Both the position numbers and the translations under genes were made by a program. Below, in pieces: positions 1 through 42,205 of a DNA stretch of 64,000 nucleotides. Position 1 is the stretch's first letter. The number at the start of each line of letters is the position of its first letter. Source of the stretch: Rubripirellula reticaptiva (GTDB lineage Bacteria; Planctomycetota; Planctomycetia; Pirellulales; Pirellulaceae); contig NZ_SJPX01000006.1 of NCBI RefSeq assembly GCF_007860175.1, positions 684,074-748,073 of the forward strand. The letters run 5' to 3'. The notes beneath the pieces are model-generated. The model was given only the letters and a program-made list of their open reading frames with translations, did not search any database and was not told the origin of the DNA.

Positions 1-211
1 CAACGCTCTCGCCGACACGCTTGATATCGGTTTTGGCAGAATTTGATAGTGGCGAAAGATCTGGTTTCTGGGTGACAGCCTGCAATGATCCCGGGTGTCC
101 TGACGGATCACTTTCATTCGCATGAACAGCTGCTTGGTCAACCGAGCCTGCATGAACAGCTAGCAAGATTGCACAAACCGCGAAAAATCGAGTTGTGATA
201 TCTGGATTCAT
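1..211 (-). CDS. Secreted protein of unknown function, N-terminal part only
   Basis: An open frame starts at an ATG at 211 on the minus strand and runs off the left edge after 70 codons. The first 20 to 25 residues (MNPDITTRFF then AVCAILLAVHAG) have the basic-then-hydrophobic pattern of a signal peptide, so the product is probably exported. The rest is a Ser/Pro/Asp-rich stretch with no motif I recognise. Codon use and the leader support a real gene, but the family cannot be named from this fragment. Confidence 0.55.
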   Translation of the reverse strand, partial: MNPDITTRFFAVCAILLAVHAGSVDQAAVHANESDPSGHPGSLQAVTQKPDLSPLSNSAKTDIKRVGESV

Positions 212-585
212 ATGCGTGCTTTCCAACGTCAGGATGTTGTTTCATGCAGGAATAAGCATTGTGCAGGCGTGCGGTCAAGGCCGCGAAAAACGCAAGTTCG
301 AACACGAAGCGAGGCGGCAATGTTTCACAACTTGCAAGTTTTGATGAGGCGATGGATCCGAACCAGAGTTTCGAATCTGCAGACCGAGCTGATACCTTAG
401 GTACAAACCGCTCAGATCGATTGCTACCTCAACAACAGAACATTTGGACGCAGCAGTCGCGAGCATTCCCCCAAAGGATCCGTGAAACTAGCAGATCGGA
501 CTTTTTTGCTGAAAATGCGTGACAGCAGCCCTTTCTGGAGATCGACCGGAAAGACTTTTCCCACCTAGGAAAGATGATTGCCGTG
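212..585. other. Intergenic stretch without recognisable gene
   Basis: No frame here resembles a protein. Most of it would be the upstream region of the partial minus-strand gene. A short near-palindrome, GGAAAGACTTTTCC, lies at 548-561 just past the end of the next minus-strand gene. It resembles the GGAAAAA/TTTTTCC palindromes at 5477, 9375 and 25548. Confidence 0.4.
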
Positions 586-999
586 CTAAACGTCCTGGCG
601 GATTTCGGCAGGGTTTCGAGTCCCCGCAAACCAACCTTGAAACGCCTCTCGAACCTGTTGATAGCCGTCGAGTTGGCTGTACTTTGCTTCCAAAGCTTCT
701 GCCTGGCTTAGCAAATCGCTGGCCTCTGTCCAGCAATTCCTTTCAGCTTCGGCAAACGCGCGATCGGCAAACTCAGCCGCCTGGACCGCATCACGCTCGA
801 CTTCGCCCAACCACTGAACCGCTTGAAACCAACCAACGGACTCTTCCCCCCGAGTTGCCTTGGCCGCCAAAATCGCTTGACGACGGCGAATACCGGCAAG
901 ATCTAGCTTTTGGGGCCCAAAGCTGGTCTGCCACTCACAACCACGCCATTGATCTCGCGCAGCTTGAATTCGCTGCTTCATGGCTTCTCGATCAAACAT
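586..999 (-). CDS. Hypothetical protein, helical, cytoplasmic
   Basis: A 137-residue product starting MFDREAMKQRIQ. The ATG at 999 is preferred over an in-frame TTG at 1017. The sequence is rich in Ala, Glu, Gln, Arg and Trp, without signal peptide or membrane segment, and looks all-alpha: a basic, Trp-containing N-terminal part followed by long Ala/Glu-rich helices around residues 60-120 that could form a coiled coil. It is divergent to the histidine kinase gene, with about 100 bases between the chosen starts. I do not recognise the family. Amino-acid composition and the absence of a better frame on the other strand support it as real. Confidence 0.6.
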   Translation of the reverse strand: MFDREAMKQRIQAARDQWRGCEWQTSFGPQKLDLAGIRRRQAILAAKATRGEESVGWFQAVQWLGEVERDAVQAAEFADRAFAEAERNCWTEASDLLSQAEALEAKYSQLDGYQQVREAFQGWFAGTRNPAEIRQDV

Positions 1000-1101
1000 G
1001 GAACTATTCAAACCCAAGTAAACCTCCCGCCTGATGCCAGAAGACTAGCGGCATTAGAATGTCTTTCCCTGCAACCAACTCGATTTTCTTACGCAATCCG
1101 C

Positions 1102-2016
1102 GTGCCATCGACAATTTACTGCCACTCGCAAATCCTTCCGCTCAACTCATTCCCCAGCGGCCCCTTGCAGCATTCACACGAAGTACCGGATCAGCCGTGG
1201 CCGAGCGACGACGAGCGGCACGCGCGAAAACTCGCCCAAGCAAGCTCGCACCAACTGGTCGAACGACAACTGATTGAACGACGGCGCCAGAGACTCGAAT
1301 CGCTCGGTACTCTAGCCAGCGGAATCGTCCACGACTTGAACAATCTGCTGACGCCGATCCTGATGAGCAGCCGAATGCTTCAGCGAGAAGGTGCCAACGT
1401 TGACCGTGCCGCACTGCTAGAGACAATCACAAGCAGTGCTTCTCGTGGCGCCGACTTGGTTGGCCAACTACTTACGTTTGCACGTGGCGGCGAGGGACAA
1501 CACGTTCCGTTGCAAGTCGAACTGATTATCCCCGAGGTAATTGCGATCCTACGCCATACTTTGTCTGGTACGGTTGACTTGAAAACAGACGTTGAAACTG
1601 GCTTGCCAACGATGATGGGCGACGAGACTGAAATTAGTCAGGTCGTGATGAACCTTGCCATCAATGCTCGTGACGCGATGATGGACGCGGGAACACTCTC
1701 TGTGCGAGCTCGGTCGATGATCTTAGATTCCGAGCGTTCGTTCTCGTATGTCACATTGCCCGCCGGACATTACCTGGCCATTGAAGTGTCGGATAGCGGC
1801 AGCGGCATCAAGCCCGAAGTTCGCGAACGTATGTTTGATCCATTCTTCACCACGAAGCCACGTGGCCAAGGGACGGGGCTCGGTCTGAGCACGAGCTTGG
1901 GAATCATCCGGTCTCATGGCGGCGCCATTGACGTTCAATCCACACTCGGCAAAGGCACCACCATCACCGTGCTATTCCCCGTCGCGAAATCAGATGACGA
2001 TCTCACCAAAACGTAA
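1102..2016 (+). CDS. Soluble sensor histidine kinase
   Basis: The product has the core of a two-component kinase. An H-box (SLGTLASGIVHDLNNLL) lies about 70 residues from the chosen start. The HATPase part follows with an N-box (NLAINARDAM), a G1 box (VSDSGSGI), an F-box (FDPFFTTK) and a G2 box (GTGLGLS). No membrane segment or recognisable PAS/GAF sensor domain precedes the H-box, so the input is probably cytoplasmic or comes from a partner. The start is uncertain: GTG at 1102 gives 304 residues and avoids overlap with the divergent gene, while a TTG at 910 would extend the protein over it. The regulator gene begins 20 bases downstream, so the two should form one pair. Confidence 0.8.
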   Translation: MPSTIYCHSQILPLNSFPSGPLQHSHEVPDQPWPSDDERHARKLAQASSHQLVERQLIERRRQRLESLGTLASGIVHDLNNLLTPILMSSRMLQREGANVDRAALLETITSSASRGADLVGQLLTFARGGEGQHVPLQVELIIPEVIAILRHTLSGTVDLKTDVETGLPTMMGDETEISQVVMNLAINARDAMMDAGTLSVRARSMILDSERSFSYVTLPAGHYLAIEVSDSGSGIKPEVRERMFDPFFTTKPRGQGTGLGLSTSLGIIRSHGGAIDVQSTLGKGTTITVLFPVAKSDDDLTKT

Positions 2017-2035: not shown

Positions 2036-3502
2036 ATGCAACCCAACGAAGGCACCCCGTCGCTTTTAGTCATTGATGACGATCCGCTGATCTTGCAGGT
2101 CATGAAGCTGTGCCTTCCCGAGCCCGACTACTGTGTCTATACCGCCGATAACGTGGCGACTGGGCAAGCGTTGTTCACCAAACATTCGCCGGATGCGGTT
2201 CTGCTTGACATCCAAATGCCACAGCAGTCGGGACTCGCTGCGCTGCATGAATTTCGCGAACTCGACCCGCGAGTTCCAGTAATCTTGATGACCGGCCACG
2301 GGACGGCGGAAACCGCCATTGGTGCCATGAGTGGCGGTGCGTTCGAGTACATCACCAAACCGTTCGAGCCCGATGAGATTTTGCCCCTGATCGACTCGGC
2401 GATCGAAACAAGTCGCATGGCCAGAATGCCCGCGGTTCTGCCTGGCGACGGCATCAGCAACCCGAACGGTCCCGGCGACGCTGGCGCAGGCGAACAGGTA
2501 CTCGGCCAGTGCCCAGCCATGGTCGAAGTGTTCCGATCGATCGGCCGAGTCGCCTCGCGAGACGTTGCCGTTCTCGTCCTCGGTGATACCGGAACCGGCA
2601 AAGAAGTCGTCGCTCGCGCGATCTATCAACACAGCCTGCGGCATGACCAAGTCTTTCATGCGATTAACTGTGCCGCAATCCCCGAAAATCTGCTCGAAAG
2701 TGAACTATTCGGACATGAAAAAGGTGCCTTCACGGGCGCGGACCAACGCAGGATCGGCAAGTTCGAAATCTGCAACGGCGGCACACTGTTTCTCGACGAA
2801 ATTGGTGACATGACTCCCCTGATGCAAACCAAAATGCTGCGAGTTCTACAGGAAAAGGAATTCGAGCGAGTCGGCGGTAGCAAACCGATCAAGACAAACG
2901 TGCGAGTCATCGCAGCGACCAACCGCGACTTAGACGCAGCAATGGCGGACGGCAGTTTCCGCAGCGATCTGTACTATCGGCTCAACGAATTTACGATCAG
3001 CTTGCCCGCGCTCCGTGATCGCGGCGACGACGTTCCGATGATGACCGAATTCTTCTTTAAGGCATTTGCCAAACAGCTAGGCAAGGACTATGTCTCAATT
3101 GCACCGGAAACAATGCAGCGTTTCACTTCGCACTCTTGGCCTGGCAATGTCCGCGAATTGCAAGGCGTAGTGAAGCAGACGCTGCTAAAAGCCAGCGGGC
3201 CAGTGATTGTTCCGGCTTTTCTGCCGATGGGCTTTGGCGAAACCAAGAGTATCAGCGGGCACCCTCAACGAAGCTGGGCAAGTGACCTAGAAACCGAAAT
3301 ACAATCTTTGCTGAGCGATGGAGCCCACAACTTGTCCGCGGAAATTCACGACCGAGTCGATCGCATTCTGCTAGCGCAAGTGCTAGCCACATCGGAAGGC
3401 AATATCAGTGCCGCGAGCATCCGATTGGGGCTAAGCCGTCCGACCCTGCGAAGCCGAATCAAGCAGCTTGGCGTGGACGCAAAGGGATCACCACCTCAGT
3501 AA
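2036..3502 (+). CDS. Sigma-54-dependent response regulator, NtrC type
   Basis: A complete three-domain activator of 488 residues. The receiver domain (about 8-120) has the acidic pocket IDDDP and phosphorylatable Asp58 in LLDIQMP. The AAA+ domain (about 155-395) has Walker A GDTGTGKE (183-190), the sigma-54 contact loop GAFTGA (230-235) and Walker B GGTLFLDEIGD. A Fis-type helix-turn-helix closes the protein (GNISAASIRLGLSRPTLRSR). By family knowledge it activates RpoN-dependent promoters after phosphorylation by the kinase just upstream. The ATG at 2036 is chosen because the receiver domain begins a few residues later; an ATG at 1994 would overlap the kinase end. Its DNA-binding domain closely resembles the small Fis-like protein at 5517-5828. 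Confidence 0.9.
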   Translation: MQPNEGTPSLLVIDDDPLILQVMKLCLPEPDYCVYTADNVATGQALFTKHSPDAVLLDIQMPQQSGLAALHEFRELDPRVPVILMTGHGTAETAIGAMSGGAFEYITKPFEPDEILPLIDSAIETSRMARMPAVLPGDGISNPNGPGDAGAGEQVLGQCPAMVEVFRSIGRVASRDVAVLVLGDTGTGKEVVARAIYQHSLRHDQVFHAINCAAIPENLLESELFGHEKGAFTGADQRRIGKFEICNGGTLFLDEIGDMTPLMQTKMLRVLQEKEFERVGGSKPIKTNVRVIAATNRDLDAAMADGSFRSDLYYRLNEFTISLPALRDRGDDVPMMTEFFFKAFAKQLGKDYVSIAPETMQRFTSHSWPGNVRELQGVVKQTLLKASGPVIVPAFLPMGFGETKSISGHPQRSWASDLETEIQSLLSDGAHNLSAEIHDRVDRILLAQVLATSEGNISAASIRLGLSRPTLRSRIKQLGVDAKGSPPQ

Positions 3503-3618: not shown

Positions 3619-5220
3619 CTACGAGTGCGGAGTCGCTTTGAGATCGTACAAGTCCGTTCGGCGATCTTTCCAGTTTGTGACACTGCCCCGTTCGCGGTGG
3701 CGACGAAGCAGTTCCAAGTCGACGTCGTGAATGATAATCGTTTCGATATTGGCGTTTGCTTCGGCACCGATTCCATTGCGAGGAAAGGAAACATCGCATG
3801 GCGTAAGAATAGCGGCCTGGGCATAGTGAATGTCCGCGTTTTCGACAAACGGCAAGTTACCGGTGCACCCCGCGATTGCAACGTAGACATCGTTTTCAAT
3901 GCATCGCGCCGCAGCACATGTTCGTACGCGCAGGTAACCGTTGTGGGTATCGGTATTGAAAGGAACGAAGATTATGTCAGCCCCCTGTTCGGCCGCGATA
4001 CGACCAAGCTCTGGAAACTCACTGTCGTAACAAACCTGAATCGAGACCTTACCGCAGTCCGTATCGAACACGTCCATCGACGGTCCACCTTCGACACCCC
4101 ACCAGCTATGTTCGCTGGGTGTGATATGCAGTTTGTATTGCCGGTCGATGCCTCCATCACGATGGAACAGAAACGCGACGTTGTACAAGTGATCGTCTTC
4201 GACAACAAAATGCGAACCACCGATGATGTTGGTGTTGAACTTGACCGCCAAGTCGCCCATCAAGTCAAGAATCTGCGGAGTGTACTCAGCCAGTTTTCGC
4301 GCGGCTTGCCCTGGACGAAGTGCCGGAATGATCGACAACAATTGTGTCGAAAACAGCTCGGGGAACAAAACAAAGTCGCACTTGTAATCGCCCGCGACAT
4401 CTGCAAAGTACCGAACCTGTGCCGCAAATTCATCAAAGTCTTTGATCGAACGCATTTGATATTGGACCGCACCGATACGAACCGGACGGACGGTTCGTCG
4501 AAAGCGACGTTTTGTTTCGGACGTGTAGTCAAGGTTGCGCCATTCCAAGAACGTCGCGTATCCACAGCTTTCGGTATCGGATGGCAAGTAATTACTTAGT
4601 AATCCCTGCAGCGTGAATCCATTGGCAATTTGAACGCTCAAGACCGGGTCGAAAATCGCTTTGTTGATGACACGGTCGACGTACTCGGTCGCCTTCAATG
4701 TTTCGGCGTGCTTGTGATAACCCGGAATGCGTCCGCCGATTACCATTTGCTCAACATTTCGGCTACGACACAATTCACGGCGAGCAGCGTACAAACGCCG
4801 AGAAAGCCGAAGACCACGAAACTCGGGATCGACCATGATTTCGATACCGTACAACGTGTCGCCGCGTGGGTTGTGGTTACGAATGTAGCCCGAATCAGAA
4901 ATCTTCTTCCAATTGCACCACTCCATTTCGTCGTCGTAGTCCAGCATCACGCTGCTGCTGCTGGCAACAACTCGGCCGTCACACTCGACAACGATCTGGC
5001 CTTCGGGAAAGTGCTTGAGTTGACTTTCAAGTTGATCGTGGCCCCAAGGCTCCATTCCCGAGAAGCATTTGGTCGCCATCGCAATCAGCCCGTCAAAGTC
5101 TTCCCTCTGCATCGGACGCACGATCAATTCGCGTTCGAACTCGGAAACGTCAAAATTGGGTTCTGGTTGGTCGTCTGTAGATGACAACGAAACATGCAGC
5201 GGTTGATTAGGATCAGCCAT
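3619..5220 (-). CDS. GNAT acetyltransferase fused to a nitrilase-type amidohydrolase
   Basis: A 533-residue two-domain enzyme. The N-terminal half (about 30-235) is a GNAT acyltransferase with the acetyl-CoA pyrophosphate-binding region near [11 protein letters not shown]. The C-terminal half (about 245-520) is a carbon-nitrogen hydrolase with the expected Glu-Lys-Cys triad: Glu288 in FPELF, Lys363 in YKLHIT and Cys397 in VCYDSEFPE. The fusion architecture is known in bacteria, but its substrate is not established to my knowledge. There is no signal peptide, so it should act in the cytoplasm on a small amide or amine. It stands next to the amidoligase genes and may acylate and deacylate a related compound; that link is inference. 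A GGAAAAA/CTTTCC palindrome lies about 255 bases upstream of its start. Confidence 0.85.
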
Positions 5221-5267
5221 GAAGATCTTCAGCGAAATGATTTACGATGGTGGAACAGGAACACGAA

Positions 5268-5285
5268 TGCCAAGACTTTTTGGCA
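5268..5285. repeat. Small inverted repeat upstream of the GNAT-nitrilase gene
   Basis: TGCCAA and TTGGCA form six-base arms around a six-base spacer, about 50 bases before the start of the GNAT-nitrilase gene on the minus strand. It could be an operator or a leader hairpin. The arms are short enough to occur by chance. Confidence 0.3.
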
Positions 5286-5473
5286 AAAGCACGTCACCCG
5301 GCAGTCTAGGCAACTTTCCCGACAAATGGCATGGATTGTCAAGCGGAACTTGCGTCATTACCTGCCGTTTATGATGCACATCCTGTGCCGAAGGAATACC
5401 GTGGCGGCAGAACGTACATCTACTTAGTCGATGCAGGCAAGCCCCGGCCGGGCCTAAAAAGACCATTGCAGAG

Positions 5474-5495
5474 ACTGGAAAAATTCTTTCCAAGT
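5474..5495. promoter_or_regulatory. Near-palindromic site, GGAAAAATTCTTTCC core
   Basis: The 15-base core at 5477-5491 is a near-perfect palindrome and is flanked by ACT and AAGT, which extend the symmetry. It lies in the intergenic region between the end of the Fis-like gene and the start of the GNAT-nitrilase gene. A perfect version of the same core, flanked by ACT and AGT, is in the amidoligase promoter region at 9372-9392. This suggests a shared regulator binding site, but no protein can be assigned. Confidence 0.4.
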
Positions 5496-5516
5496 CATCC
5501 AGTATTTCCGGGTGGG

Positions 5517-5828
5517 TTACGCGGTCGGCTGAGTGTATAGCCCCAGCGCGCGGCTCCGATTTCTAAGCGTCGGTCGGCTGACTCCCAACCGCTTGCTGGC
5601 CTGGCTAATGTTCCCGCTCGTTTGGGCCAACACATAGTCCAAGACCACTCGATCGACTCGCTCATGAACCTGTTCTAAGATCACTTGCGATTCGCCAGCG
5701 AATAACCGCCGAACCTCGTTGATCAGCCCCTGTTCCCATGGATCGAGCGCGAACGAATCTTGCTCGTTCGACACGGCTCGCGATTGGCCGGACGTACAGG
5801 AAACAGTCACGTCGTTTGAGAGTTGCAT
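5517..5828 (-). CDS. Small Fis-family DNA-binding protein
   Basis: The product is 103 residues, starting MQLSNDVTVS. The last 50 residues form a Fis-type helix-turn-helix (VHERVDRVVLDYVLAQTSG, then NISQASKRLGVSRPTLRNR). This half is very similar to the C-terminal DNA-binding domain of the NtrC-type regulator at 2036-3502 (IHDRVDRILLAQVLATSEG, then NISAASIRLGLSRPTLRSR). There is no receiver or AAA+ domain. The likely origin is a duplicated or detached output domain that could share or compete for the same DNA sites. It lies between the GNAT-nitrilase gene and the end of the transglutaminase operon, on the same strand. An upstream in-frame start at 5870 is possible, but the alignment does not need it. 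Confidence 0.8.
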   Translation of the reverse strand: MQLSNDVTVSCTSGQSRAVSNEQDSFALDPWEQGLINEVRRLFAGESQVILEQVHERVDRVVLDYVLAQTSGNISQASKRLGVSRPTLRNRSRALGLYTQPTA

Positions 5829-5957
5829 CGAGGAATGCCAAGGAAACGGGCTAGAGAACCGGCCAGTCAAAGGAATATTGCCAAAGCAGATTGCATAACA
5901 ATCTCCGATGCGAATCTCGTGCCGTTCTTGTCGCGCCGCTTCCTACCACACCAACTT

Positions 5958-6815
5958 TTACAAGTGACGATCCACCTCGGTCACTGTCACCTCGTATTCG
6001 ATGGTCGACTCTGCTCCGGTACCGATGTAACAACCCTCCGTGGCTGCCGCCCACTCGGCTTCGGGTCCAGCAGCCACTGCAATGTGTTGGTCCGAGACTG
6101 CAACACCACGACTAGGGTCGTACCCTCTCCATCCGCCACCCGGCAAATAAACCTCTGCCCAAGCATGCAGCTCGGACGTTCCAACCCGATTCGGTTCATA
6201 AATATAGCCGCTAACAAACCGAGCTGCGATTCCTTGCGAACGACACACATCCATAAACAGCACGGCCAAGTCACGACACGCTCCGCGCTTGGAAGCAAAT
6301 GTTTCCGATGGCGATAAAGGCGATCCACCGTAGCGATTTTCAGAATTGAAATCCCGCGCAATCTGTTCTGTCACTTGCAACAGAAACGACTGCGTTTGGT
6401 TACCCGCGGACGCAGACACTTCCTTTGCCCACTCGCTAATCTGCGAGTCAGCCTTGTTACGGTGCAAATGCGCCGCCAATGCTTGCTCGACCGGTTCGTG
6501 GTATCGCGCAGGCAGGTTCGTCGTTCGTGCATCAAGCGAAAGAAAATCGAACGGATTCGTTCGCAGCGTTTCCACACGCGAATTTACCTCGATGCAAAAT
6601 TCCAGGTAGACGCCACTGAAGGACGCCTGCAGCGCCGAGTTACCAAAGACATCTAGAATCGACGTCGAAGCAAGTGGCGTTGGCGTCAGAGTGCAGTTCC
6701 AATCCAGAAGCCGCTGCGAACCGTCACCGCGAGGCTGCAACCGAATCGTCAGCGGTTCAATGATCACTGGGCGATCATATCGGTACGTGATTCGGTGATG
6801 GATTTGAAATATCAC
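5958..6815 (-). CDS. Transglutaminase-like cysteine protease/acyltransferase
   Basis: A 285-residue protein with a bacterial transglutaminase N-terminal beta domain (from HHRITYRYDRP, ending about residue 90) and a transglutaminase core carrying the papain-like triad: Cys180 in KRGACRDLA, His217 in LHAWAEVYLP and Asp233 in GYDPSRG. No signal peptide is seen. It is the last gene of the three-gene minus-strand operon and overlaps the alpha-E gene by 4 bases (ATGA), so translation is probably coupled. Relatives encoded with circularly permuted ATP-grasp and alpha-E proteins are expected to cleave or rearrange the amide bond formed by the ligase; the substrate is not known. Confidence 0.9.
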   Translation of the reverse strand: MIFQIHHRITYRYDRPVIIEPLTIRLQPRGDGSQRLLDWNCTLTPTPLASTSILDVFGNSALQASFSGVYLEFCIEVNSRVETLRTNPFDFLSLDARTTNLPARYHEPVEQALAAHLHRNKADSQISEWAKEVSASAGNQTQSFLLQVTEQIARDFNSENRYGGSPLSPSETFASKRGACRDLAVLFMDVCRSQGIAARFVSGYIYEPNRVGTSELHAWAEVYLPGGGWRGYDPSRGVAVSDQHIAVAAGPEAEWAAATEGCYIGTGAESTIEYEVTVTEVDRHL

Positions 6816-7783
6816 GAGGCTGCTTTGTTTCCTGCTGAAACGGGCTTAAGAGCAAAGAATGTGTCAAACACCGCGCCGCCAACGAGGTTTAGATTCTCTT
6901 GAAAGGTATCCAAGTATTCGTGCAGTCCGCCTTCTAAGATCTCGCCAATGTCAGCAAAGTCCAGTTCGGATCGCAGTTGCCCAAGCTTCCGTTCAACCGG
7001 ACTGGCATAGCTCGAACTCTCGCTGCCCGTGATCAGACGCAACGATCGCTCGGCACCCTTGACGCAAAAGCGTATCGAGCGAGAAAAGTGCTGATCCAAG
7101 ATCAGAAACTCGACCACGCGATCGGGATGAATCGCTCGAAACCGCTTTCGGTACATTTCGAAGGCGCTGGCGGACTTCAACAGTGCTGACCACAGTAACG
7201 CGTCGTAGGGCGAGCCCACATGATCCGTTTTTGGCAACAACATGAAATACTTCACGTCCAAGATCCGGGCCGTCTTATCGGCACGTTCGATCGTTCGTCC
7301 GAGCCTCGCAAATTGCCACGGTTCGCCGTGCGACATGGTGGAATCCGCAATGCCTGTACACAGGTGACTGGCTTGCTTGATTTCAGCAAAAAACTTATGC
7401 GGTGAATCAATCTTGGTTTGCTTCGACGCATGCTGAACAAGCAAGTAAAAATGATTGATCTGTTCCCAAAGCTCGGACGAAATGGTATCCCGAACCGTTC
7501 GCGCATTCTCGCGTGCCTGCCATAAACACGACAGAATCGAATTTGGATTCTCACGATCAAACGTCAAAAACTTGACGACATTCTCTTCACTGAATTCATC
7601 ATAGCGATCAGAAAATTCACTTTCATCACCCGTCGTCAAAATCATCGGTTTCCACTGAGCAGCCGATTCGTGTGGCAGATCCAACGCCAGCGTGAAGTTT
7701 ACGTCGACAAATCGAGCGACGTTTTCAGCCCGTTCGACGTAGCGGGCCAGCCAATAGATAGCGTCTGCGGTACGACTAAGCAT
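6812..7783 (-). CDS. Alpha-E domain protein (DUF403)
   Basis: A 323-residue, almost entirely helical protein. It begins [21 protein letters not shown], the characteristic start of alpha-E family proteins, and repeats the pattern in the middle ([19 protein letters not shown]). No enzymatic residues are known for the family, which is regularly encoded beside circularly permuted ATP-grasp proteins and may be a partner or scaffold. The ATG at 7783 lies inside the last codons of the ATP-grasp gene (8-base overlap) and is preceded by AAGG, so start choice and coupling are clear. The 3' end overlaps the transglutaminase start by 4 bases. Confidence 0.92.
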
Positions 7784-9317
7784 CCTTGGCACCCTGAGTT
7801 TGCGATTTCGAATTTGTTTTTTGAGTCTGCGATTGCGTTTGCGACTGCGAACTTGCACCCTGACTTTGCTCAGCCCTGCCGTCGCTAGGAGCGACGACCC
7901 ACGTGTCCTTGCTGCCGCCACCTTGCGACGAATTAACGACCAAGGAACCTTTGCGAAGCGCAACGCGGGTCAAGCCACCTGGCATCACGAAAATGTCTTC
8001 GCCGTACAGAATGTAGGGACGCAGATCGACGTGCCGTCCTTCAAAATCATCGCCGACGATTGTAGGAGCACGCGATAGCCCCAAGGTCGGCTGGGCGATG
8101 AAATTGCGTGGACATTCGCGAATCTGGGCCGCGAATTCGGTTTGCTCTTTCTTGGTCGAATGTGGCCCGATTAGCATGCCGTAGCCGCCCGAAAGATTGA
8201 CCGCTTTGACCACCAACTTGTCCAAGTTCTTCAATACAAAATCAAGCTGGTTTGGTTCCGAGCACAAGTACGTTTCGACATTGGGAAGAATCATGTCCTG
8301 ATTCAGGTAATACTTGATGATCTGTGGAACGTAGGCATAAACCGCTTTGTCATCCGCGATCCCTGTCCCCGGTGCATTAGCAAGTGCGACATTTCCGCGG
8401 CGATAAACATCCATCAATCCGGGCACGCCCAAGCAAGAGTCTTCGCGAAAGACTTTTGGATCAATGAAGTCATCGTCGATACGGCGATAGATCACGTCGA
8501 CTCGCTGAAAACCCTTCGTCGTCCGCATCTTCACAAAGCCATCTTGGATGACAAGATCGCTTCCCTCAACAAGCTCGACGCCCATCTGCTGGGCCAGATA
8601 GGCATGTTCAAAGTATGCCGAGTTGTACATGCCGGGCGTCAGCACCACGACGGTTGGTTCGGCGACTCCCCGCGGCGCAAGATACTGAAGTGCCGCCAAT
8701 AAGCGATTTGGATAATCGTAAACCGGCTGAACGTGCATCGACTGAAACACGTTCGGGAACGTCCGCTTCAACACTTCACGATTCTGTAGGACATAGGAAA
8801 CGCCCGAAGGACAGCGTAAGTTGTCTTCCAAGACCATCAGCTTGCCGGCTTGATCGCGAACCAAGTCGGTTCCTGTCACGTGGATCCAGATATCTCGCTG
8901 AGGCGTCAAGCCAACGCACTGCGGGCGAAACGAATCTGCAGAATTCAGCAACTCGCCCGGAATGATGCCGTCCTTGATGATGTTCTGGTCGTGATAGACG
9001 TCGTTGATGAACAGATTGAGCGCCTCGATTCGTTGCTTCAGCCCTCTTTCAATCTGCAACCAATCCCCGGGCTCGATCACACGAGGGACGATATCAAACG
9101 GGAAGATCTTTTCAGTGCCTTCGTCGCTACCGTAAACCGTGAAGGTGACGCCCATCTGCAAGAAAGCTGCTTCGGCCGCTTGTTGCCGTCGGTGCAGATC
9201 ACCCGGCGGCAGGGATTCAATTTTGGCAATTAGAGGCTTTGCGGCCTCATGAGGAACGCCCGCCTTCTCGAACAACTCGTCGTAGAATCCGTCAGTCTGG
9301 TAGTCCGTGAACTTCAT
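7776..9317 (-). CDS. Circularly permuted ATP-grasp type 2 protein
   Basis: The product is 513 residues with the conserved layout of the circularly permuted ATP-grasp family (old DUF404/DUF407). An N-terminal region includes FYDELF. The body contains the family blocks [48 protein letters not shown] and [11 protein letters not shown]-like [11 protein letters not shown]. The family is predicted to form ATP-dependent peptide or amide bonds. The last 30 residues are a low-complexity Ser/Gln/Thr/Lys tail made of repeated SQTQ-like units, which most relatives lack. The start at ATG 9317 ([10 protein letters not shown]) is favoured over ATGs at 9329 and 9359 because the conserved region begins there. 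It heads the minus-strand operon, divergent from the peptidase-ligase operon. Confidence 0.92.
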
Positions 9318-9371
9318 TGTTCGTTTCATCTCAAGAAAAATTTGCGCAGGACGAATCAAGGATCCTTTTCA

Positions 9372-9392
9372 ACTGGAAAAAGTTTTTCCAGT
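9372..9392. promoter_or_regulatory. Perfect palindrome, GGAAAAAGTTTTTCC core
   Basis: Ten-base arms (ACTGGAAAAA and its exact complement) surround a single central G. The site lies 55 to 75 bases upstream of the ATP-grasp start on the minus strand, where an operator would overlap the promoter. Similar cores occur at 5477-5491 and 25548-25562. It could also be a hairpin in the leader RNA. The binding protein is unknown. Confidence 0.5.
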
Positions 9393-9850
9393 GCGAAATG
9401 ACGCCCCCAACCTCGACTGCGATTTTGATAGCACAATTTCTATCGCAAGCTTCCACAGCGTAACGGAATCCACCGCTAGCCGCAGACGAGCTGATCGCAA
9501 CGCAGAAAGAATCGACGCGACGCTCGTCAACATTCTGAACGATGAACGCTCGCTTGCTGAACTCGTCACAGTTCTAGATGGCGCACTCAAAAGATGCGAG
9601 ACGACGTCGCCGCAACCTCGCGCTAAATCACTTAACACATTCGGCAAACAACAATCTGTAAAACGCTATTTTCCGAACCAGAAAATTTCGTCATTGAACA
9701 ATCGAAGACGAAAACCATGTCGCTTGCATGCGACTTTGCACCACCGACGCCCCCGTGAATCGGCAAATAGCTTTCCGGTTTCGGCAACTTCTTTCCAGAT
9801 ATCTGATGGGTCACCATTGAATTCAGCGTAATAATGCCGTATCGAAGGTT

Positions 9851-9867
9851 TCGGTACGAAAACTGCC
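9851..9867 (+). promoter_or_regulatory. Probable sigma-54 promoter of the peptidase-ligase operon
   Basis: TCGGTACGAAAACTGCC matches the RpoN consensus with GG at 9853-9854, GC at 9865-9866 and exactly 10 bases between. The TACG after GG matches the minus-24 consensus. The predicted transcript start near 9878 would give a leader of about 60 bases to the ATG at 9938. An NtrC-type activator with an intact GAFTGA loop is encoded at 2036-3502. This is an assignment by eye, without a matrix score. Confidence 0.5.
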
Positions 9868-9937
9868 CGTGAGCCGGTATTAGAAGTCAACACGACTCGA
9901 AGACAGCAAGGACCCAAAGTCCACGCGACGGATACGC

Positions 9938-10987
9938 ATGAAACTCTCTTACGCCACACACGAATTTCTACACCTGCTTCGCGCATTGGTTCGCGAACCG
10001 TCCGTCGTTGGCGTGGAAGATGCTTTCTTTCGAGTCCTTCGCCGAGAACTGGAAGAGTACCCGGTCAAGATCACGCGGTACCACGGCTTGCTTGTCGTTG
10101 AAGGCGATGAACCCGAAAGCGTTTACTTGTCGGCTCACGTCGATCGACACGGCTTGTTGTGCACTGGGCCGCGTGAATTCCAGTACGCCGCGTTCATCGC
10201 CGGCAACCGAGGCGAGTTGAACGGCGACTCGATTTCAGAACAATTTATGGAACTGATCGCCGGACGGTTTCGCGGTCAACGTGTCCAGGCTCACACGCCG
10301 TATGCGGGATCGTACCTAGGGCAGGGCACCATCACCGAATCGTATGTTTGTCCGCGACGAAAAAATCTGATCTTTGAAATTGACGGTCTCGATTACCTAC
10401 AACCCGCAACGCCAGTTTCTTTTGTCGATCGCCTGCAAGAAAAAGACGGCTACATTTCCGCTCAGCTCGATAACGTAATTTCGGTCGCGATGGTGATCGA
10501 ACTGGTGCGCCGAGGATTCGCAGGAACGGCTTTCTTCTCGGCCGGCGAAGAATCCGGACGTAGCTGGCGATTCATCGCCGAATGGTTTCAACGTCACGAT
10601 ACAACAACCGACCAATTGATCGTGCTCGACACGAGCCCATTTCCGACAGTCGATGATTGCGACCAACAAGATGTGGTGCTCCGCCATGGCGATTCCAACG
10701 CATTGTTCGACCCAGCCGCGACCGAGCGACTTCGCAAGTCGTGCGATCGGTTAGCGATCACCTACTGCTTCAAAGATGATTACATCCAGGCGCTCAATCG
10801 AACCCGCGAAAAACAGAGCTCGATCGGACGCACCGAACTAGGGCGATTGATCGCCGCCACGTCGGGCCAAGTGTCCGGCACAACTCTGCAATTGCCGACA
10901 TCGTCATACCACACTCAATTGGAAACCGCGTCGCTGATTAGCGTCGATGCGATGCTGCGACTGCTCTGTCATCGGTGCCAGCTTTGA
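9938..10987 (+). CDS. M42/M20-like zinc peptidase
   Basis: A 349-residue metallopeptidase-like protein. Candidate metal and catalytic residues appear in the order known for the family: His67 and Asp69 in SAHVDRHG, Asp178 in AQLDNV, Glu204-Glu205 in GEESG, Asp231 in VLDTSP and His325 in SYHTQ. Members are usually aminopeptidases with two zinc ions. No signal peptide is seen, so it should act in the cytoplasm. It is the first gene of the plus-strand operon, and its stop overlaps the GTG start of the next gene. In this setting it could trim the peptide made by the neighbouring ligases; the substrate is inferred only from context. Confidence 0.88.
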   Translation: MKLSYATHEFLHLLRALVREPSVVGVEDAFFRVLRRELEEYPVKITRYHGLLVVEGDEPESVYLSAHVDRHGLLCTGPREFQYAAFIAGNRGELNGDSISEQFMELIAGRFRGQRVQAHTPYAGSYLGQGTITESYVCPRRKNLIFEIDGLDYLQPATPVSFVDRLQEKDGYISAQLDNVISVAMVIELVRRGFAGTAFFSAGEESGRSWRFIAEWFQRHDTTTDQLIVLDTSPFPTVDDCDQQDVVLRHGDSNALFDPAATERLRKSCDRLAITYCFKDDYIQALNRTREKQSSIGRTELGRLIAATSGQVSGTTLQLPTSSYHTQLETASLISVDAMLRLLCHRCQL

Positions 10988-11718
10988 CGCACGAACTTGT
11001 CCTCGAAATTCAACCGCAGCCGACTCAAACGGCCTGTGGTCCAACCTGCTTGGCCGCTGTTTACGAATACTGGGATCGCCCCGTCGACCTGCACGAACTA
11101 GTTGGCAAGATCACCGAACTGGATACCGGCGGTACACTCGCAGTCGACTTGGCCTGCGACGCGCTCGAGCGTGGTTTCATGGCCGAGATCGTGACTTACA
11201 ACCTGCAACTGTTCGACCCAACTTGGTTCGACGGCGAGGGAGAAATGAAATCCGCCGACGAGTTAGTTAAAAAGTTGTCTCGGCAACTTGGTGCGAAACA
11301 ACATCGCACCGACATTGACGTCATGCGTTTGACGGCCGCGACGAATACTTACCTGCGATTCCTCCACCTCGGCGGCAAAGTACGCATGCAGCCGCTCGAT
11401 GACTTACTGCTGGTATCGATGATGGCACGCGAAACCCCTGTCCTTTGCGGACTAAGCGCGACCTACTTGTACCAAGAGTCTCGCGAGAAACCATCCGGGG
11501 ATTCAGACGATGAAGCGGGCGATCCAACCGGCCATTTCGTCGTGTTGCACGGATTTGATCCTATCAAACGAACAGTCTTGATCGCCGATCCGCTGCATCC
11601 GAACCCGATGGCACCGACCAATAAGTACATCGCTCCGCTATCGCGAGTTACGTCAGCAATTTTGTTAGGCATCGTGACATTTGATGCCAACCTGCTGACC
11701 ATCACCCTCAAGGATTGA
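10975..11718 (+). CDS. C39-like/papain-fold cysteine peptidase
   Basis: A 247-residue cysteine peptidase-like protein. The nucleophile region is TACGPTCLA with Cys21; the second catalytic residue is His187 in GHFVVLHGFD, followed by Asp205 in LIADPLH. This matches peptidase C39 proteins, which in other systems cleave after double-glycine leaders. There is no ABC transporter or membrane domain, so it is a free enzyme. The start is a GTG at 10975 overlapping the end of the M42-like gene by 13 bases. The RimK-like gene begins 10 bases after its stop. With the ligases nearby, it is a candidate for processing a precursor peptide or removing a tag. Confidence 0.85.
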   Translation: MPALTHELVLEIQPQPTQTACGPTCLAAVYEYWDRPVDLHELVGKITELDTGGTLAVDLACDALERGFMAEIVTYNLQLFDPTWFDGEGEMKSADELVKKLSRQLGAKQHRTDIDVMRLTAATNTYLRFLHLGGKVRMQPLDDLLLVSMMARETPVLCGLSATYLYQESREKPSGDSDDEAGDPTGHFVVLHGFDPIKRTVLIADPLHPNPMAPTNKYIAPLSRVTSAILLGIVTFDANLLTITLKD

Positions 11719-11728
11719 ACCGAGCTTT

Positions 11729-13195
11729 ATGAAAACGATTCTTGTTGCTGAATCCAATGACGACTGGATCGGCAACTTCGATGGTGTGGAAACCGTCGAC
11801 CCTCGCGATTACCTCTCTTCTCCAGATGCCAAGTCGCGTGGACGCACTCGCGTCTACAACCTAAGTCGATCCTATGCCTACCAGAGCATGGGCTATTACG
11901 TTTCACTGTTGGCCGAAGCCCGTGGTGAACGCCCCATGCCAGACGTCACCACAATCCAAGACCTGTCTGGATCAGCCGCCGTCCGATTAATTCCTCAACA
12001 TCTCGAAGAACTGATCGAAAGCTCGTTCAAAGGCCTTTCCAGCGATGAGTTCGTGCTGAGTGTCTATTTCGGCCAGAACCTGGCCAAGAAGTATGACCGC
12101 CTGGCCAAAGAACTGTTTAACCTATTTCAAGCACCGCTACTGCAATTCAAATTCACACGCCGCAGCAAATGGCGACTCCGACGCGCGTCAGCGGTCTCGC
12201 TGGGTAATGTCCCGGCACATCATCGAAAATTCGTCGCCGATGCAGCCAAGAAACACTTTGCTCGTGGTGTTTCCAGCCGTCCCAAACGCAAGTCAATGCG
12301 TTATGACATGGCGATTCTGCACAATCCGGCTGAAGGGGACTTGGCGCCATCCGACGAATCGGCGCTGAAAAAGATGGTCAAAGCCGCAGCCGCGGAAGGT
12401 ATCAATGCCGAACTGATCACACGATCTGACTCAAACCGATTGCTTGAGTTCGATGCGCTGTTCATTCGTGAAACGACGGCTGTCAACCATCACACGTATC
12501 GTTTAGCACGCCGGGCCGAAGCGGCCGGAATGGTGGTGATCGACGATCCGATATCGATCCTTCGATGCACCAATAAGGTTTACTTGGCCGAACTGCTGAC
12601 CCGTGCCAAAGTGCCGATCCCGCAGACCACAATCGTGCATCGTCGCAACGCAGATGAATTGGCCGAGACGCTTTCTTATCCGTGTGTGCTGAAACGGCCT
12701 GATAGCGCGTTTTCGCAGGGAGTGGTCAAAGCCGCCGACGCTGATGAATTGCAGGCGAGGCTGTCCGAATTTTTTGCTGATTCTGAGCTTGTAATCGCCC
12801 AGCAATACATGCGAACCGATTTTGATTGGCGGATCGGTGTGATGGACGGCCGGGCAATGTTCGCTTGCAAGTACCACATGGCGCGTGGTCACTGGCAGAT
12901 CGCGAAGCATGGCACCGAATCGGAATCGAAACCTCAGTTCGGTAAAGCTGAGACGATCCCTGTGGAAACTGCACCGCGAAAAGCGGTCGCGACCGCCGTC
13001 AAAGCCGCCAATCTAATCGGTGCCGGTTTATATGGCGTCGATGTCAAAGAGGTCGACGGACAGTTTTACGTCATCGAAGTCAACGACAACCCAAACTTGG
13101 ATTCCGGCGTCGAAGACGCCGTGCTGCGAGAAGAACTTTATCGCCGCATCATGGAATCGTTTGCCCGCCGAATTGAAGCCACCAAACAAACTTAA
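11729..13195 (+). CDS. RimK-like ATP-grasp ligase with RLAN-type N-terminal domain
   Basis: A 488-residue ligase. The N-terminal half (about 1-200), with YNLSRSYAYQSMGYYVSLLAE, matches the domain found in front of some RimK-like ATP-grasp proteins. The C-terminal half (about 205-475) is a classic ATP-grasp fold with VLKRPDSAFSQGV as ATP-binding loop, a metal-binding IEVNDNPNLD near the end and the FIRETT block before it. RimK-family enzymes add amino acids, often glutamate, to proteins or peptides at the cost of ATP. It lies between the C39-like peptidase and the GCS2-type ligase, 18 bases before the latter. The acceptor is unknown, and I would not call it ribosomal-protein S6 ligase. Confidence 0.92.
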   Translation: MKTILVAESNDDWIGNFDGVETVDPRDYLSSPDAKSRGRTRVYNLSRSYAYQSMGYYVSLLAEARGERPMPDVTTIQDLSGSAAVRLIPQHLEELIESSFKGLSSDEFVLSVYFGQNLAKKYDRLAKELFNLFQAPLLQFKFTRRSKWRLRRASAVSLGNVPAHHRKFVADAAKKHFARGVSSRPKRKSMRYDMAILHNPAEGDLAPSDESALKKMVKAAAAEGINAELITRSDSNRLLEFDALFIRETTAVNHHTYRLARRAEAAGMVVIDDPISILRCTNKVYLAELLTRAKVPIPQTTIVHRRNADELAETLSYPCVLKRPDSAFSQGVVKAADADELQARLSEFFADSELVIAQQYMRTDFDWRIGVMDGRAMFACKYHMARGHWQIAKHGTESESKPQFGKAETIPVETAPRKAVATAVKAANLIGAGLYGVDVKEVDGQFYVIEVNDNPNLDSGVEDAVLREELYRRIMESFARRIEATKQT

Positions 13196-13213
13196 CGATA
13201 AAGCTTTCCAATC

Positions 13214-14446
13214 ATGACACTGAAATTGTTTGACGCCTTTGGCATTGAAATGGAATACATGCTGGTCGATCGCGACACGCTGGGCGTGCGCCCGGTCGCC
13301 GACTCGCTGTTAGCGATTCTGACAGGCGGAAACATGGCCAGCGACTACGAGGCAGGTCCAATCACATGGTCCAACGAACTTGCGCTGCACATCATCGAGC
13401 TCAAAACAACGCTGCCAGTAACTAAGATTGGGTCGCTGCCATCGCAGTTTGAAACCGCCATTCGCAAACTTCGCCCCGCGATGGATCGATTAAATATTCG
13501 ATTGCTGCCCACCGCCATGCACCCGTGGATGAACCCCGCGGTCGAAACCATCCTGTGGCCGCATGAAAACCATGAAATCTATCGGACCTATGATCGCATC
13601 TTCAATTGCAAGTCGCACGGTTGGGCCAACGTTCAAAGCGTTCACTTGAACCTGCCTTTTGATGGCGACGATGAGTTTGCTCGTTTGCATGCGGCTGTTC
13701 GTTTAGTTCTGCCGATCCTACCAGCCCTGACCGCCAGTTCGCCAATCGTCGACGGGCAATACACTGGCAAGGCAGATTCTCGGATGCAGCACTACGCCGA
13801 CCATTGTAAAGCGATGCCGTCGCTGACCGGGCGTCTTGTTCCCGAGCCGTTGTTTGACGAGGCCAGCTATCGGAGTGAAGTGTTTGACAAGATCGCCAAA
13901 GATGTACGGCCACACGATCCACAGGGCGTGCTCGAGGTCGACTTTCTAAACTCGCGCGGAGCGATCGCGAGATTTGACCGTGGTTCGATCGAACTTCGCG
14001 TCATGGACGTGCAAGAGTATCCCGGTGCAGACGTGTCCATTTGCGCCGCCGCGATCGCAGTCATCAAATCGTTAGTAGCCCAGCAATGGTCGACGACCGA
14101 ACTGCAGAAAACAGCTTCGACAGATTCGCTACGAGCAATCCTGGATCAAGTCACCGTCAGCGCGGAAAATGCCTTGATCGACAATGCAGATTTCCTGGCT
14201 ATGTTTGACATTCAAAAATCGTCGTGTACCGCGAGACAGCTTTGGGGTGTCCTGCTTGAACGAGTGCGACGCGATGACACGGCGCTTGCAAATCTGTACG
14301 CACCGATCGAAATCATCATGGAACAGGGAACACTCGCGACCCGGATTCGCACCTCTCTTGGCGAAAACTTCGACCACGAAGAACTCCACAACGTGTATGA
14401 CCAGATCGCCGACTGCTTGGATACTTGGGAACCGTTCCAGCCATGA
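13214..14446 (+). CDS. GCS2-family glutamate-amine ligase
   Basis: A 410-residue member of the glutamate-cysteine ligase family 2 (COG2170/YbdK type). It has the N-terminal FGIEMEYMLVD substrate and metal site, the central NVQSVHLNLPF block and RFDRGSIELRVMDVQE in the C-terminal half. The family couples the gamma-carboxyl of glutamate to an amine using ATP. Beside a RimK-like ligase rather than a glutathione synthetase gene, it more likely makes a glutamyl amide or peptide than glutathione. Its last codons overlap the start of the N-formylglutamate amidohydrolase gene by 4 bases (ATGA), showing tight coupling. Confidence 0.9.
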   Translation: MTLKLFDAFGIEMEYMLVDRDTLGVRPVADSLLAILTGGNMASDYEAGPITWSNELALHIIELKTTLPVTKIGSLPSQFETAIRKLRPAMDRLNIRLLPTAMHPWMNPAVETILWPHENHEIYRTYDRIFNCKSHGWANVQSVHLNLPFDGDDEFARLHAAVRLVLPILPALTASSPIVDGQYTGKADSRMQHYADHCKAMPSLTGRLVPEPLFDEASYRSEVFDKIAKDVRPHDPQGVLEVDFLNSRGAIARFDRGSIELRVMDVQEYPGADVSICAAAIAVIKSLVAQQWSTTELQKTASTDSLRAILDQVTVSAENALIDNADFLAMFDIQKSSCTARQLWGVLLERVRRDDTALANLYAPIEIIMEQGTLATRIRTSLGENFDHEELHNVYDQIADCLDTWEPFQP

Positions 14447-15144
14447 CTAGCCCAGAATGGTTGATCACGTGCGAACACGGCGGCAACCTGGTGCCCAAGC
14501 CTTTTCAATCGCACTTCGCGACACCCGGTGCGGCCAGAGCCCTCAACAGTCACCGCGGCTATGACCCCGGTGCACTGGAAGCGGCGACGCAGTTCGCAAA
14601 AGCTCAAGTTGCGGAACTAATCTCATCAGAAACCACTCGGTTGCTTGTCGACCTAAACCGATCACAAGACAATCCGGGCCTGTATTCCCCGTTCACATCT
14701 AATCTTTCCGCTAGCCAGCGAGCCACGTTGCTGGACGACTGGTACTACCCCTACCGCAAACAAGTAGAAGGCGAACTTCGCAGTCGAATTCAATCCGCCG
14801 GCTGTGTCGTCCATCTGTCCATTCATACGTTCACGCCACGTTTCAAAGGAACATGGCGTCCCATCGATGTTGGTTTTCTTTTCGATCCTGTGCGAGCCGG
14901 TGAAGCAGCTTTTTGCCAAGCTTGGCTTAGCGACGTGAAAAGAAAGCATCCGCGCGTTCGAGCGGTCGCCAACCAACCTTACGCCGGAACTGACGACGGA
15001 TTCACAACTGCCCTACGCCAAAAGTTCGCAGACTCAAATTACCTTGGCATCGAAGTCGAGATCAGCCACCGGTTTTGGAAGCGATCGCCGCAAAGCCAAA
15101 AGAACATAGTCCGAGCATTGTTAGAAACGATTCCGCCACATTGA
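14443..15144 (+). CDS. N-formylglutamate amidohydrolase-like enzyme
   Basis: A 233-residue protein with the metal site TCEHGGNLVP at residues 9-18 and later family blocks VDLNRS and HLSIHTFTP. Known members hydrolyse N-formyl-L-glutamate or related N-acyl acidic residues. No histidine-degradation genes are nearby, so the substrate may instead be a blocked glutamyl group on the product of this operon. The ATG at 14443 overlaps the preceding stop. It is the last gene of the plus-strand operon, and the convergent RND pump gene ends 37 bases downstream. Confidence 0.88.
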   Translation: MTSPEWLITCEHGGNLVPKPFQSHFATPGAARALNSHRGYDPGALEAATQFAKAQVAELISSETTRLLVDLNRSQDNPGLYSPFTSNLSASQRATLLDDWYYPYRKQVEGELRSRIQSAGCVVHLSIHTFTPRFKGTWRPIDVGFLFDPVRAGEAAFCQAWLSDVKRKHPRVRAVANQPYAGTDDGFTTALRQKFADSNYLGIEVEISHRFWKRSPQSQKNIVRALLETIPPH

Positions 15145-18100: not shown

Positions 18101-18301
18101 CGGAACCGTGATCAGACTCTCGACGTCCTCGGTTGAGATCCCGGGCGCTTCGGTTTGGATTTCCACAAGTGGCGGAGCGAACTCGGGAAATACGTCAAGC
18201 GGCACCGAGTCAGACGTGCGAACGCCAACAATGACAAGCGCGACGGCGAGAACGAGTACGAGCAATCGAAATTGCAATGATGTCTTGATGAGCCAGTTCA
18301 C
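15182..18301 (-). CDS. RND heavy-metal efflux pump, CzcA/CusA type
   Basis: A full-length inner-membrane RND pump of 1039 residues. It has an N-terminal transmembrane helix, two large periplasmic loops and two blocks of hydrophobic helices. The proton-relay acidic residues appear in [18 protein letters not shown] of helix 4, as in the heavy-metal-efflux branch. I see no obvious Met cluster of the CusA kind in the periplasmic part, so the metal cannot be assigned. The gene overlaps the upstream fusion-protein gene by 4 bases. Together with the TolC-like gene it makes a CzcCBA-type operon read from 21134 to 15182. Confidence 0.93.
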
Positions 18302-19578: not shown

Positions 19579-19718
19579 CGATTAACCTCGGGGAAATCGC
19601 GGCAAACACGAGCACAACCAACGTGGGCCGCAATACGTTACTAAAAGCATAGTTGCAAACCACTGTATTGGAATCCGACTCGCAGCTTGCGATCGCATTC
19701 TAATCGCGTTAGTCGTGC

Positions 19719-42197: not shown

Positions 42198-42205
42198 AAG
42201 TAAAC

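Follow-up and report, generated by a model that had tools for sequence, protein, structure and literature searches.

The head-to-head pair of amidoligase operons in the window, a 64,000-nucleotide stretch of Rubripirellula reticaptiva DNA (G000:C6:684074-748073, G000 being the window's own planctomycete genome of 7.85 Mb), raises the question of whether its ligases and peptidases constitute one conserved pathway or separate systems placed under common control. A sequence-only reading of this DNA had favoured a joint pathway, with both operons gathered around one control region and no exporter visible. From the genome comparisons presented here, it is held about evenly probable that two independent amidoligase modules stand head to head under one two-component NtrC-type sigma-54 switch. 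What is new is the operator TGGAAA-N5-TTTCCA; the gene families and both types of cluster were already known.

All genes named in the earlier reading were recovered as full open frames without internal stops, and their families were confirmed by Pfam and NCBIfam matches (Table 1). The minus strand carries, in this order, genes for a circularly permuted (CP) ATP-grasp ligase, an alpha-E protein, a transglutaminase-like protein (TG), a Fis-like protein and a GNAT-nitrilase, and the plus strand those for an M42-like metallopeptidase, a C39-like peptidase, an RLAN-RimK ligase, a GCS2-family ligase and an N-formylglutamate amidohydrolase-family protein (FGAH), with a histidine kinase and an NtrC-type regulator to the left of both operons. 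The existence of two operons is supported by gene overlaps of 8 bp (CP/alpha-E), 4 bp (alpha-E/TG), 13 bp (M42/C39) and, given an FGAH start at 14443, 4 bp (GCS2/FGAH). An MFS transporter gene, absent from the earlier reading and contrary to its statement on exporters, belongs to the gene set; it lies directly 3' of FGAH in two relatives (G021, of the window's genus, and G018).

The 17-bp palindrome TGGAAA-N5-TTTCCA came from a search for inverted repeats in nine upstream regions. Two exact copies are present in the window, one before the GNAT-nitrilase gene and one between the CP and M42 genes, and five two-mismatch copies there are within chance. The whole genome holds six exact operators, about 0.33 being expected from base composition alone in a genome of this size, and three of them are at the locus (chance of three of six in 40 kb, 2.6e-6), the third standing at C6:669712 before a RimK pair. 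Both exact operators of G396 are also at the locus. In nine genomes together, 24 exact operators were counted, 11 of them at RLAN or CP loci, and a reversed control gave 2; in 266 kb of locus pieces, picked with the motif already known, 11 exact operators were found where 59 other arms of the same letters gave at most one each (mean 0.017). Frames of at least 200 aa cover 3 of the 11 at-locus operators and 10 of the 13 others; the latter were considered as extra targets and set aside on that account, those of L226, L223 and L227 not being so covered. A BamB/PQQ-like propeller gene occupies positions 23008-25299 of the window. In G193, an exact operator stands 177 bp before the homologue of this gene (L226, 60% identity), and only a two-mismatch site, at 25547, accompanies the window copy. 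A VKOR-thioredoxin gene (L027:12460-13860 in G021, L209:1001-2398 in G396) carries one-mismatch operators and a good sigma-54 element.

RLAN scored above the cut-off in 57 of 396 genomes, the window's included, and, with three genomes added from a separate search, 59 planctomycete RLAN loci were mapped besides the window. When operators were counted that differ at no more than one position, lie no farther than 4 kb from RLAN and fall outside the queried genes, all five loci with an orthologue of the kinase or NtrC (55% identity or more across 150 aa) had one and none of the 54 loci without such an orthologue did (p=2e-7); four of the five (L154, L155, L158 and L028) had played no part in the discovery of the motif. 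The activator of the locus has the receiver, GAFTGA-bearing AAA and Fis-type helix-turn-helix (HTH) domains that an NtrC-type sigma-54 regulon requires. Operators stand in tandem, 20-22 bp apart, in L154, L155 and L027, an arrangement common among sites of enhancer-binding proteins. A single control region is supported, in a sharper form than first proposed, by a shared operator accompanied by sigma-54-like elements. A literature search, as far as the sources were accessible, turned up no shared NtrC/sigma-54 operator over several amidoligase operons. The window also contains a second kinase/NtrC-type pair (40743-43564), whose best NCBIfam matches, AtoS and AtoC, are under the cut-off and whose regulator is 37% identical to the NtrC of the locus.

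Candidate -24/-12 promoters were scored between operator and start codon with author-set weights and 200 shuffles, and a sigma-54-like element was present in 11 of 15 such stretches (p<=0.025). In the window, only the GNAT-nitrilase element exceeds chance. The predicted M42 element is kept in the alignment of the window with G021 and G396, its proximal operator being degraded in the window, and a conserved element lies upstream of the RimK pair in three genomes. In G396, an exact operator stands 199 bp before the CP gene and is followed by a sigma-54-like element (p 0.015). When the entire window was scanned with a loose sigma-54 pattern, 117 matches were counted against 70 expected, which is uninformative alone; no match at 9318-9937 had fewer than two mismatches.

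As to whether the two modules are one unit, the window CP, alpha-E and TG had no match at any of the 59 planctomycete RLAN loci, nor had CP and alpha-E at the 80 best RLAN loci, within flanks of at most 10 kb, many of them shortened by contig ends in fragmented assemblies; a TG-like frame is present in L059. Two of the 59 genomes (G018 and G037) have RLAN and CP no more than 30 kb apart on a single contig, about one being expected by chance. Since the modules lie apart in relatives, the joint pathway fails on this separation test. Co-occurrence in genomes does exist, though, CP-ATP-grasp being present in 53 of 59 RLAN genomes against 25 of 46 RLAN-negative relatives (p=0.02 on the set of 59 relatives).

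The window-type CP block (CP-ATP-grasp, alpha-E, TG, Fis-like and GNAT-nitrilase genes) was followed through a TG search of 149 family genomes. TG at 60% identity or more was found in four genomes besides the window's (G396, G021, G332 and G243), and the complete block, in the same gene order, only in G396, with identities to the window of 88% (CP), 86% (alpha-E), 72% (TG), 54% (Fis) and 85% (GNAT-nitrilase). In G435 and G025, CP, alpha-E and TG are present at 59, 50 and 39%, with no Fis or GNAT-nitrilase matches. G396 has no RLAN, and G021 displays kinase, NtrC, M42, C39, RLAN, GCS2, FGAH and MFS genes as a single run but no CP block there, with the TG and GNAT-nitrilase orthologues isolated on other contigs; thus, each module stands without the other. 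The two operons of the earlier reading are both there and head to head, but its eight genes are not a conserved unit, and the locus joins two known kinds of amidoligase cluster. G396 keeps NtrC and M42 at 11-13 kb from CP and has further gene order in common with the window genome, which makes loss and rearrangement seem likelier than a simple insertion of the CP block. Insertion by a mobile element was also considered, and none was noticed in the block, though no search was aimed at such genes. Orthologues of the window TG (63-70%) also occur in L201, L202 and L204, where the 20 kb covered include neither CP-ATP-grasp nor alpha-E.

The GNAT-nitrilase is at home in both settings. In a tree of 15 rows, the window and G396 copies group together (99/98) beside that of G021, within a clade of seven that also holds four RLAN-linked copies (100/99), so that RLAN and CP settings are mixed in one clade. 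At 60% identity or more, the gene occurs in 8 of 9 RLAN-positive and 3 of 27 RLAN-negative family members (p=4e-5, one partial copy counted), and M42 in 6 of 9 and 1 of 27. Of the 16 M42 genomes seen, four (G000, G001, G018 and G396; about 0.3 expected) have a CP gene no farther than 30 kb from M42, which is weak as evidence because the CP copy of G001 and G018 is not of the window type and G396 was found via TG.

Genome-wide, the free-standing Fis-like protein encoded in the CP block matches best the C-terminal part of the adjacent NtrC (53.6 bits against 32.5 for the next match), and both have SRPTLR in the presumed recognition helix, unlike the next three paralogues. Its frame is open in G396 (54% identity; 66% over 71 aa). 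The Fis-domain tree is weak, one of its nine inner branches being starred. Since its DNA-binding domain is related to that of NtrC, the Fis-like protein may compete for the NtrC sites, the two sharing sites with mutual interference.

For the plus-strand module, a scan with an alignment of 13 RLAN ligases, from which the best 80 of 576 relatives were kept, gave an adjoining C39 gene at 72, GCS2 at 72 and FGAH at 46 of the 80 loci by profile hidden Markov model, 2 GCS2 and 8 FGAH misses falling at contig edges. Records with C39, RLAN and GCS2, many of them metagenome-assembled genomes, include, by their titles, Planctomycetota, Bacteroidota, Pseudomonadota, Desulfobacterota, Nitrospirota, Acidobacteriota, Spirochaetota, Verrucomicrobiota, Ignavibacteriota, Balneolota and Myxococcota. 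C39-RLAN-GCS2, often with FGAH, is an old operon of ten or more phyla. At the 59 planctomycete loci, C39 was present in 57, GCS2 in 55, FGAH in 34, MFS in 11, M42 in 9 and GNAT-nitrilase in 8. Apart from the core and the named accessory genes, what recurred beside the clustered RLAN loci was, to judge by length, offset and representative, mostly Pontibacter synteny or core genes read in antisense. An EgtC-like class II amidotransferase gene adjoins the operon in L021, L059, L069, L074, L078, L126, L136 and L139; in L021, L126, L136 and L139, where no FGAH was found, it comes after GCS2. In L116, a Pseudomonas aeruginosa plasmid, the RLAN ligase gene is without C39 and GCS2 partners in the annotation shown, and ggt and glutamate/aspartate transporter genes are a few kb away.

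Columns that we take to be catalytic are invariant in the C39, GCS2 and FGAH alignments, including C21, H187 and D205 of the C39-like protein across 57 rows. The predicted model of the latter (predicted local distance difference test, pLDDT, 94) has a papain-like fold, and its best solved matches in Foldseek are the pseudomurein endoisopeptidase PeiR, ranked first, and C39 domains, phytochelatin synthase coming lower. The model of the RLAN ligase (pLDDT 89) matches LysX, ArgX, RimK and D-Ala ligases, and at full length the 50 matches listed are ATP-grasp folds throughout. The GCS2 protein is a remote member of its family, since it scores far under the NCBIfam cut-offs of the YbdK and GshA families, and by its matches to solved structures (E ~0.004) it is likewise remote from known gamma-glutamyl ligases. 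The nearest solved structure to FGAH is 2odf, a structural-genomics entry. With GCS2 and FGAH so placed, the substrate is unreadable from sequence, and the earlier suggestion that the locus builds and edits a glutamyl-type peptide may hold.

A third operator-bearing operon, about 14 kb to the left of the window, encodes a RimK fused to TrkA_C together with an AstE/AspA-family protein. Near it are genes for MgtE, CNNM, an SLC12-type permease and two MscS-like proteins in G000, CorA and a Na/Ca exchanger in G021, and several such ion genes in G396. MgtE (66-67%) is also encoded within the RLAN loci L154, L155 and L158, and divalent cation or Na/Ca transporters are near 4 of the 5 NtrC loci against 6 of the 54 others (p=0.002, kinship ignored).

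Taken together, these observations suggest a mechanism in which the kinase would phosphorylate the NtrC-type activator, which would then bind the TGGAAA-N5-TTTCCA enhancers and fire -24/-12 promoters 56-107 bp downstream. It would act on the RLAN operon, the GNAT-nitrilase gene and, beyond the window, the RimK-TrkA_C/AstE-like operon, with the CP block as a further probable target; the Fis-like protein of that block may damp the response by competing for activator sites. GCS2 would join a glutamyl carboxylate to an amine and the RimK-like ligase would extend the product, which the C39-like, M42, FGAH and nitrilase enzymes may trim, transfer or recycle, the GNAT domain may acylate and the MFS protein may move. 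As MscS, SLC12-type, MgtE, CorA, CNNM and Na/Ca exchanger genes surround the regulon, the trigger could be a change in ions or turgor, upon which several ligase sets would be expressed more. The genes, the conservation of the operon, the operator and its link with the regulator are read from sequence. The wider proposal, that one NtrC/sigma-54 system runs on ion or turgor change an amidoligase regulon of three peptide-ligase systems (RimK-TrkA_C/AstE-like; RLAN-GCS2-C39-FGAH with M42; CP-ATP-grasp/alpha-E/TG), with the CP operon feeding back via a Fis-like relative of the activator's DNA-binding domain, is a tentative one, held at somewhat less than even confidence.

Several points weigh against this proposal. 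In the window, just 57 bp separate the CP operator from the presumed CP start, a stretch that holds no sigma-54 element (p 0.47), the M42-proximal operator has three mismatches and its promoter resembles shuffles (p 0.30), and the stretches before the G021 RimK pair (p 0.23) and the G396 GNAT gene (p 0.095) also fail the shuffle test; given the failure of the window CP and M42 stretches, co-control is clearer in relatives than in the window. The CP and GNAT-nitrilase upstream regions align poorly between genomes. The two L028 operators fall early in frames of 530 and 346 aa, and frames running over several sites make the intergenic position of the operators less clear-cut. The motif was derived post hoc from the nine regions, the 4-kb rule was fixed once the hits were known, one L133 site, inside the MFS gene, was left uncounted in the regulator-link test, and all p-values ignore kinship. 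G018, which has the M42-RLAN operon, has no operator with at most one mismatch at the locus. Rhodopirellula baltica carries the module (record L036, strain BR-MGV), and its main solutes, in the part of the source available (PMC3694870), are alpha-glutamate, sucrose, trehalose and mannosylglucosylglycerate, with no peptide, which disfavours a bulk peptide osmolyte. The main text of a 2009 R. baltica stress paper, in the portion accessible, does not mention RimK, S6 modification, CorA or nitrilase.

Alternatively, two widespread operons with unrelated jobs may have become neighbours by accident, the operator serving only the RLAN locus and the RimK pair. This is consistent with the modules being adjacent in none of the 59 other RLAN planctomycetes, as far as contigs reach, with the intact CP block of G396 and the intact RLAN locus of G021, each without the other module, and with the window CP start, which has no sigma-54 element after its operator. 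It is nevertheless considered unlikely, as the G396 CP block has its own exact operator and sigma-54-like element where RLAN is absent, the Fis protein of the block is related to the NtrC HTH, the GNAT-nitrilase occurs in both settings inside one clade and, as a weak point, M42 and CP are close in four of the 16 M42 genomes. A role in protein tagging, whereby the ligases would attach a glutamyl or other peptide tag, as RimK does on ribosomal S6, and the peptidases would remove it, is an unlikely reading as well. RimK, ArgX and LysX, which act on protein C-termini, are among the nearest folds of the modelled RLAN ligase, and the C39-like model resembles papain-fold enzymes, PeiR first. For the CP/alpha-E/TG set, the available part of PMC6376114 cites Iyer et al. 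2009 as having put forward tagging too. Against it, no recurrent tag or target gene was found beside the operon in the clusters among frames of at least 80 aa. Furthermore, free amino acids are the usual substrates of the GCS2, FGAH and AstE-like families.

In a thiol or metal-chelator pathway, which is judged distinctly improbable, GCS2 and ATP-grasp would make a glutathione-like peptide and the papain-fold enzyme would act like phytochelatin synthase beside a CusA-like pump. The GCS2 and ATP-grasp order is that of glutathione synthesis, phytochelatin synthase Alr0975 is among the Foldseek matches of the C39-like model (E 5e-4), a CusA/CzcA-like RND adjoins, the VKOR-thioredoxin gene of G021 and G396 has one-mismatch operators, and the EgtC-like amidotransferase occurs at 8 of 139 partly overlapping loci (the two tested being both under the EgtC cut-off). 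However, PeiR and C39 domains outrank Alr0975, neither the G021 nor the G018 locus has the RND cassette, which no operator precedes, and the GCS2 enzyme is far under the gshA and YbdK cut-offs. Very improbable, and already weakened, is a bulk osmolyte like N-acetylglutaminylglutamine amide (NAGGN), that is, an abundant capped glutamyl peptide for osmoprotection. The ion and osmotic gene neighbourhood would fit it, and the NAGGN system includes an M42 peptidase and a GNAT domain. Yet the window M42 protein has no NCBIfam match at E 0.01, no NAGGN model was found for the ligase among the matches listed (25 of 28 families), and the R. baltica solutes reported in the accessible part of PMC3694870 include no peptide.

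The proposed NtrC-controlled regulon can be set beside known systems. Iyer et al. 2009 reportedly described RLAN-RimK amidoligase clusters (PF14401), in which a GNAT-papain-like peptidase fusion is common without being required. The window is alike in having an RLAN-RimK ligase (PF14401 at 159 bits against a cut-off of 25), with papain-like peptidase and GCS2 genes adjoining it in one operon, and differs in the added FGAH, M42, MFS and GNAT-nitrilase genes and NtrC/sigma-54 operator; it has no GNAT-papain fusion, the C39-like protein having C39 matches only and the GNAT domain being fused to nitrilase. Enteric NtrC sites are 6-N5-6 palindromes, and the present system resembles the enteric regulon in this, in its GAFTGA response regulator with Fis-type HTH and in its predicted -24/-12 promoters, but has other arm sequences and, as predicted targets, amidoligase genes. 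CP-ATP-grasp, alpha-E and transglutaminase genes in a row are shared with the Anbu operon, as far as described in the accessible parts of PMC6376114 and PMC5666114. The window operon is however without an Anbu gene, Fis-like and GNAT-nitrilase genes coming next, and its TG has 285 aa against the 1,120-aa frame of the copy in L035. An Anbu partnership of the CP block was considered and rejected, the Anbu-like gene being elsewhere in the genome: the sole PF00227 match, at C6:467531 (L207), is about 216 kb to the left of the window. It encodes a Ntn protease of 247 aa, Anbu-like by length and neighbour only, beside a transglutaminase-like gene and with no CP-ATP-grasp in the 3.6 kb seen. The Rlo and Rim operons of Pseudomonas likewise combine an ATP-grasp ligase with a peptidase, and Rlo is tied to osmotic stress; they have retropepsin-like proteases, Rlo also has an inactive transglutaminase membrane protein, and RLAN, GCS2 and C39-like genes are unmentioned in the part of that source available (PMC12239564).

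Table 1. Features of the locus and its surroundings, in window positions.
Feature	Position	Strand	Basis and remarks
MscS-type mechanosensitive channel gene, start	1..226	-	remainder left of window, C6:681858-684299; Pfam MS_channel_2nd/3rd on L034:17788-19998
Histidine kinase, HisKA + HATPase	910..2016	+	start uncertain; homology from ~1198
NtrC-type sigma-54 activator: receiver, AAA with GAFTGA (aa 230), Fis-type HTH	2036..3502	+	domain matches
GNAT-nitrilase fusion (GNAT + CN_hydrolase)	3619..5220	-	Pfam; relatives beside RLAN (8/59 loci) or in CP block (G396)
Predicted sigma-54 -24/-12 element of GNAT-nitrilase, CGGCACAGGATGTGCA	5375..5390	-	element scoring; not discernible in cross-genome alignment
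Operator palindrome, exact	5476..5492	.	motif scan
Stand-alone Fis-like DNA-binding protein, HTH_8	5517..5870	-	Pfam; closest in genome to C-terminus of adjacent NtrC
Transglutaminase-like protein, 285 aa, Transglut_core + Bact_transglu_N	5958..6815	-	Pfam; GTG start
Alpha-E protein	6812..7783	-	Pfam 6e-103; start shifted to ATG at 7783
Circularly permuted ATP-grasp ligase, CP_ATPgrasp_2	7776..9317	-	Pfam 1e-166; start 9317 assumed
Operator palindrome, exact	9374..9390	.	divergent region, 57 bp upstream of CP start; covered by a spurious-looking 174-aa frame
Degenerate operator, 3 mismatches	9761..9777	.	aligns with M42 operator of G021 and G396
Predicted sigma-54 element of M42 operon, CGGTACGAAAACTGCC	9852..9867	+	aligns with TGGCACGAAAACTGCA (G021) and TGGCACGGAAACTGCA (G396); score alone in window at chance level
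M42-like metallopeptidase	9938..10987	+	Peptidase_M42, weak, 2e-6; no NCBIfam family at E 0.01
C39-like papain-fold peptidase	10975..11718	+	Peptidase_C39_2, 2e-9
RLAN + RimK-like ATP-grasp ligase	11729..13195	+	Pfam RLAN + RimK 7e-47
GCS2-family carboxylate-amine ligase	13214..14446	+	GCS2, 2e-24
N-formylglutamate amidohydrolase-family protein (FGAH)	14443..15144	+	FGase, 2e-21
CusA/CzcA-like RND cassette: RND, adaptor, outer-membrane protein	15182-21134		between FGAH and MFS gene; absent there in G021 and G018
MFS transporter	21571..22998	+	84% identical to FGAH-adjacent MFS of G021; RND cassette intervenes here

Overall, the sequence-only reading stands for its genes, gains support for shared control, and falls for a conserved joint pathway and for the absence of an exporter. 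RLAN and CP-ATP-grasp amidoligase clusters are widespread. No role assignment for the RLAN operon was turned up in the literature as far as accessible, and the proposed roles of the Anbu (CP/alpha-E/TG) operon lacked experimental confirmation according to the part of PMC6376114 available. The predicted operator, a named regulator and the ion and osmotic setting make this peptide pathway open to experiment.

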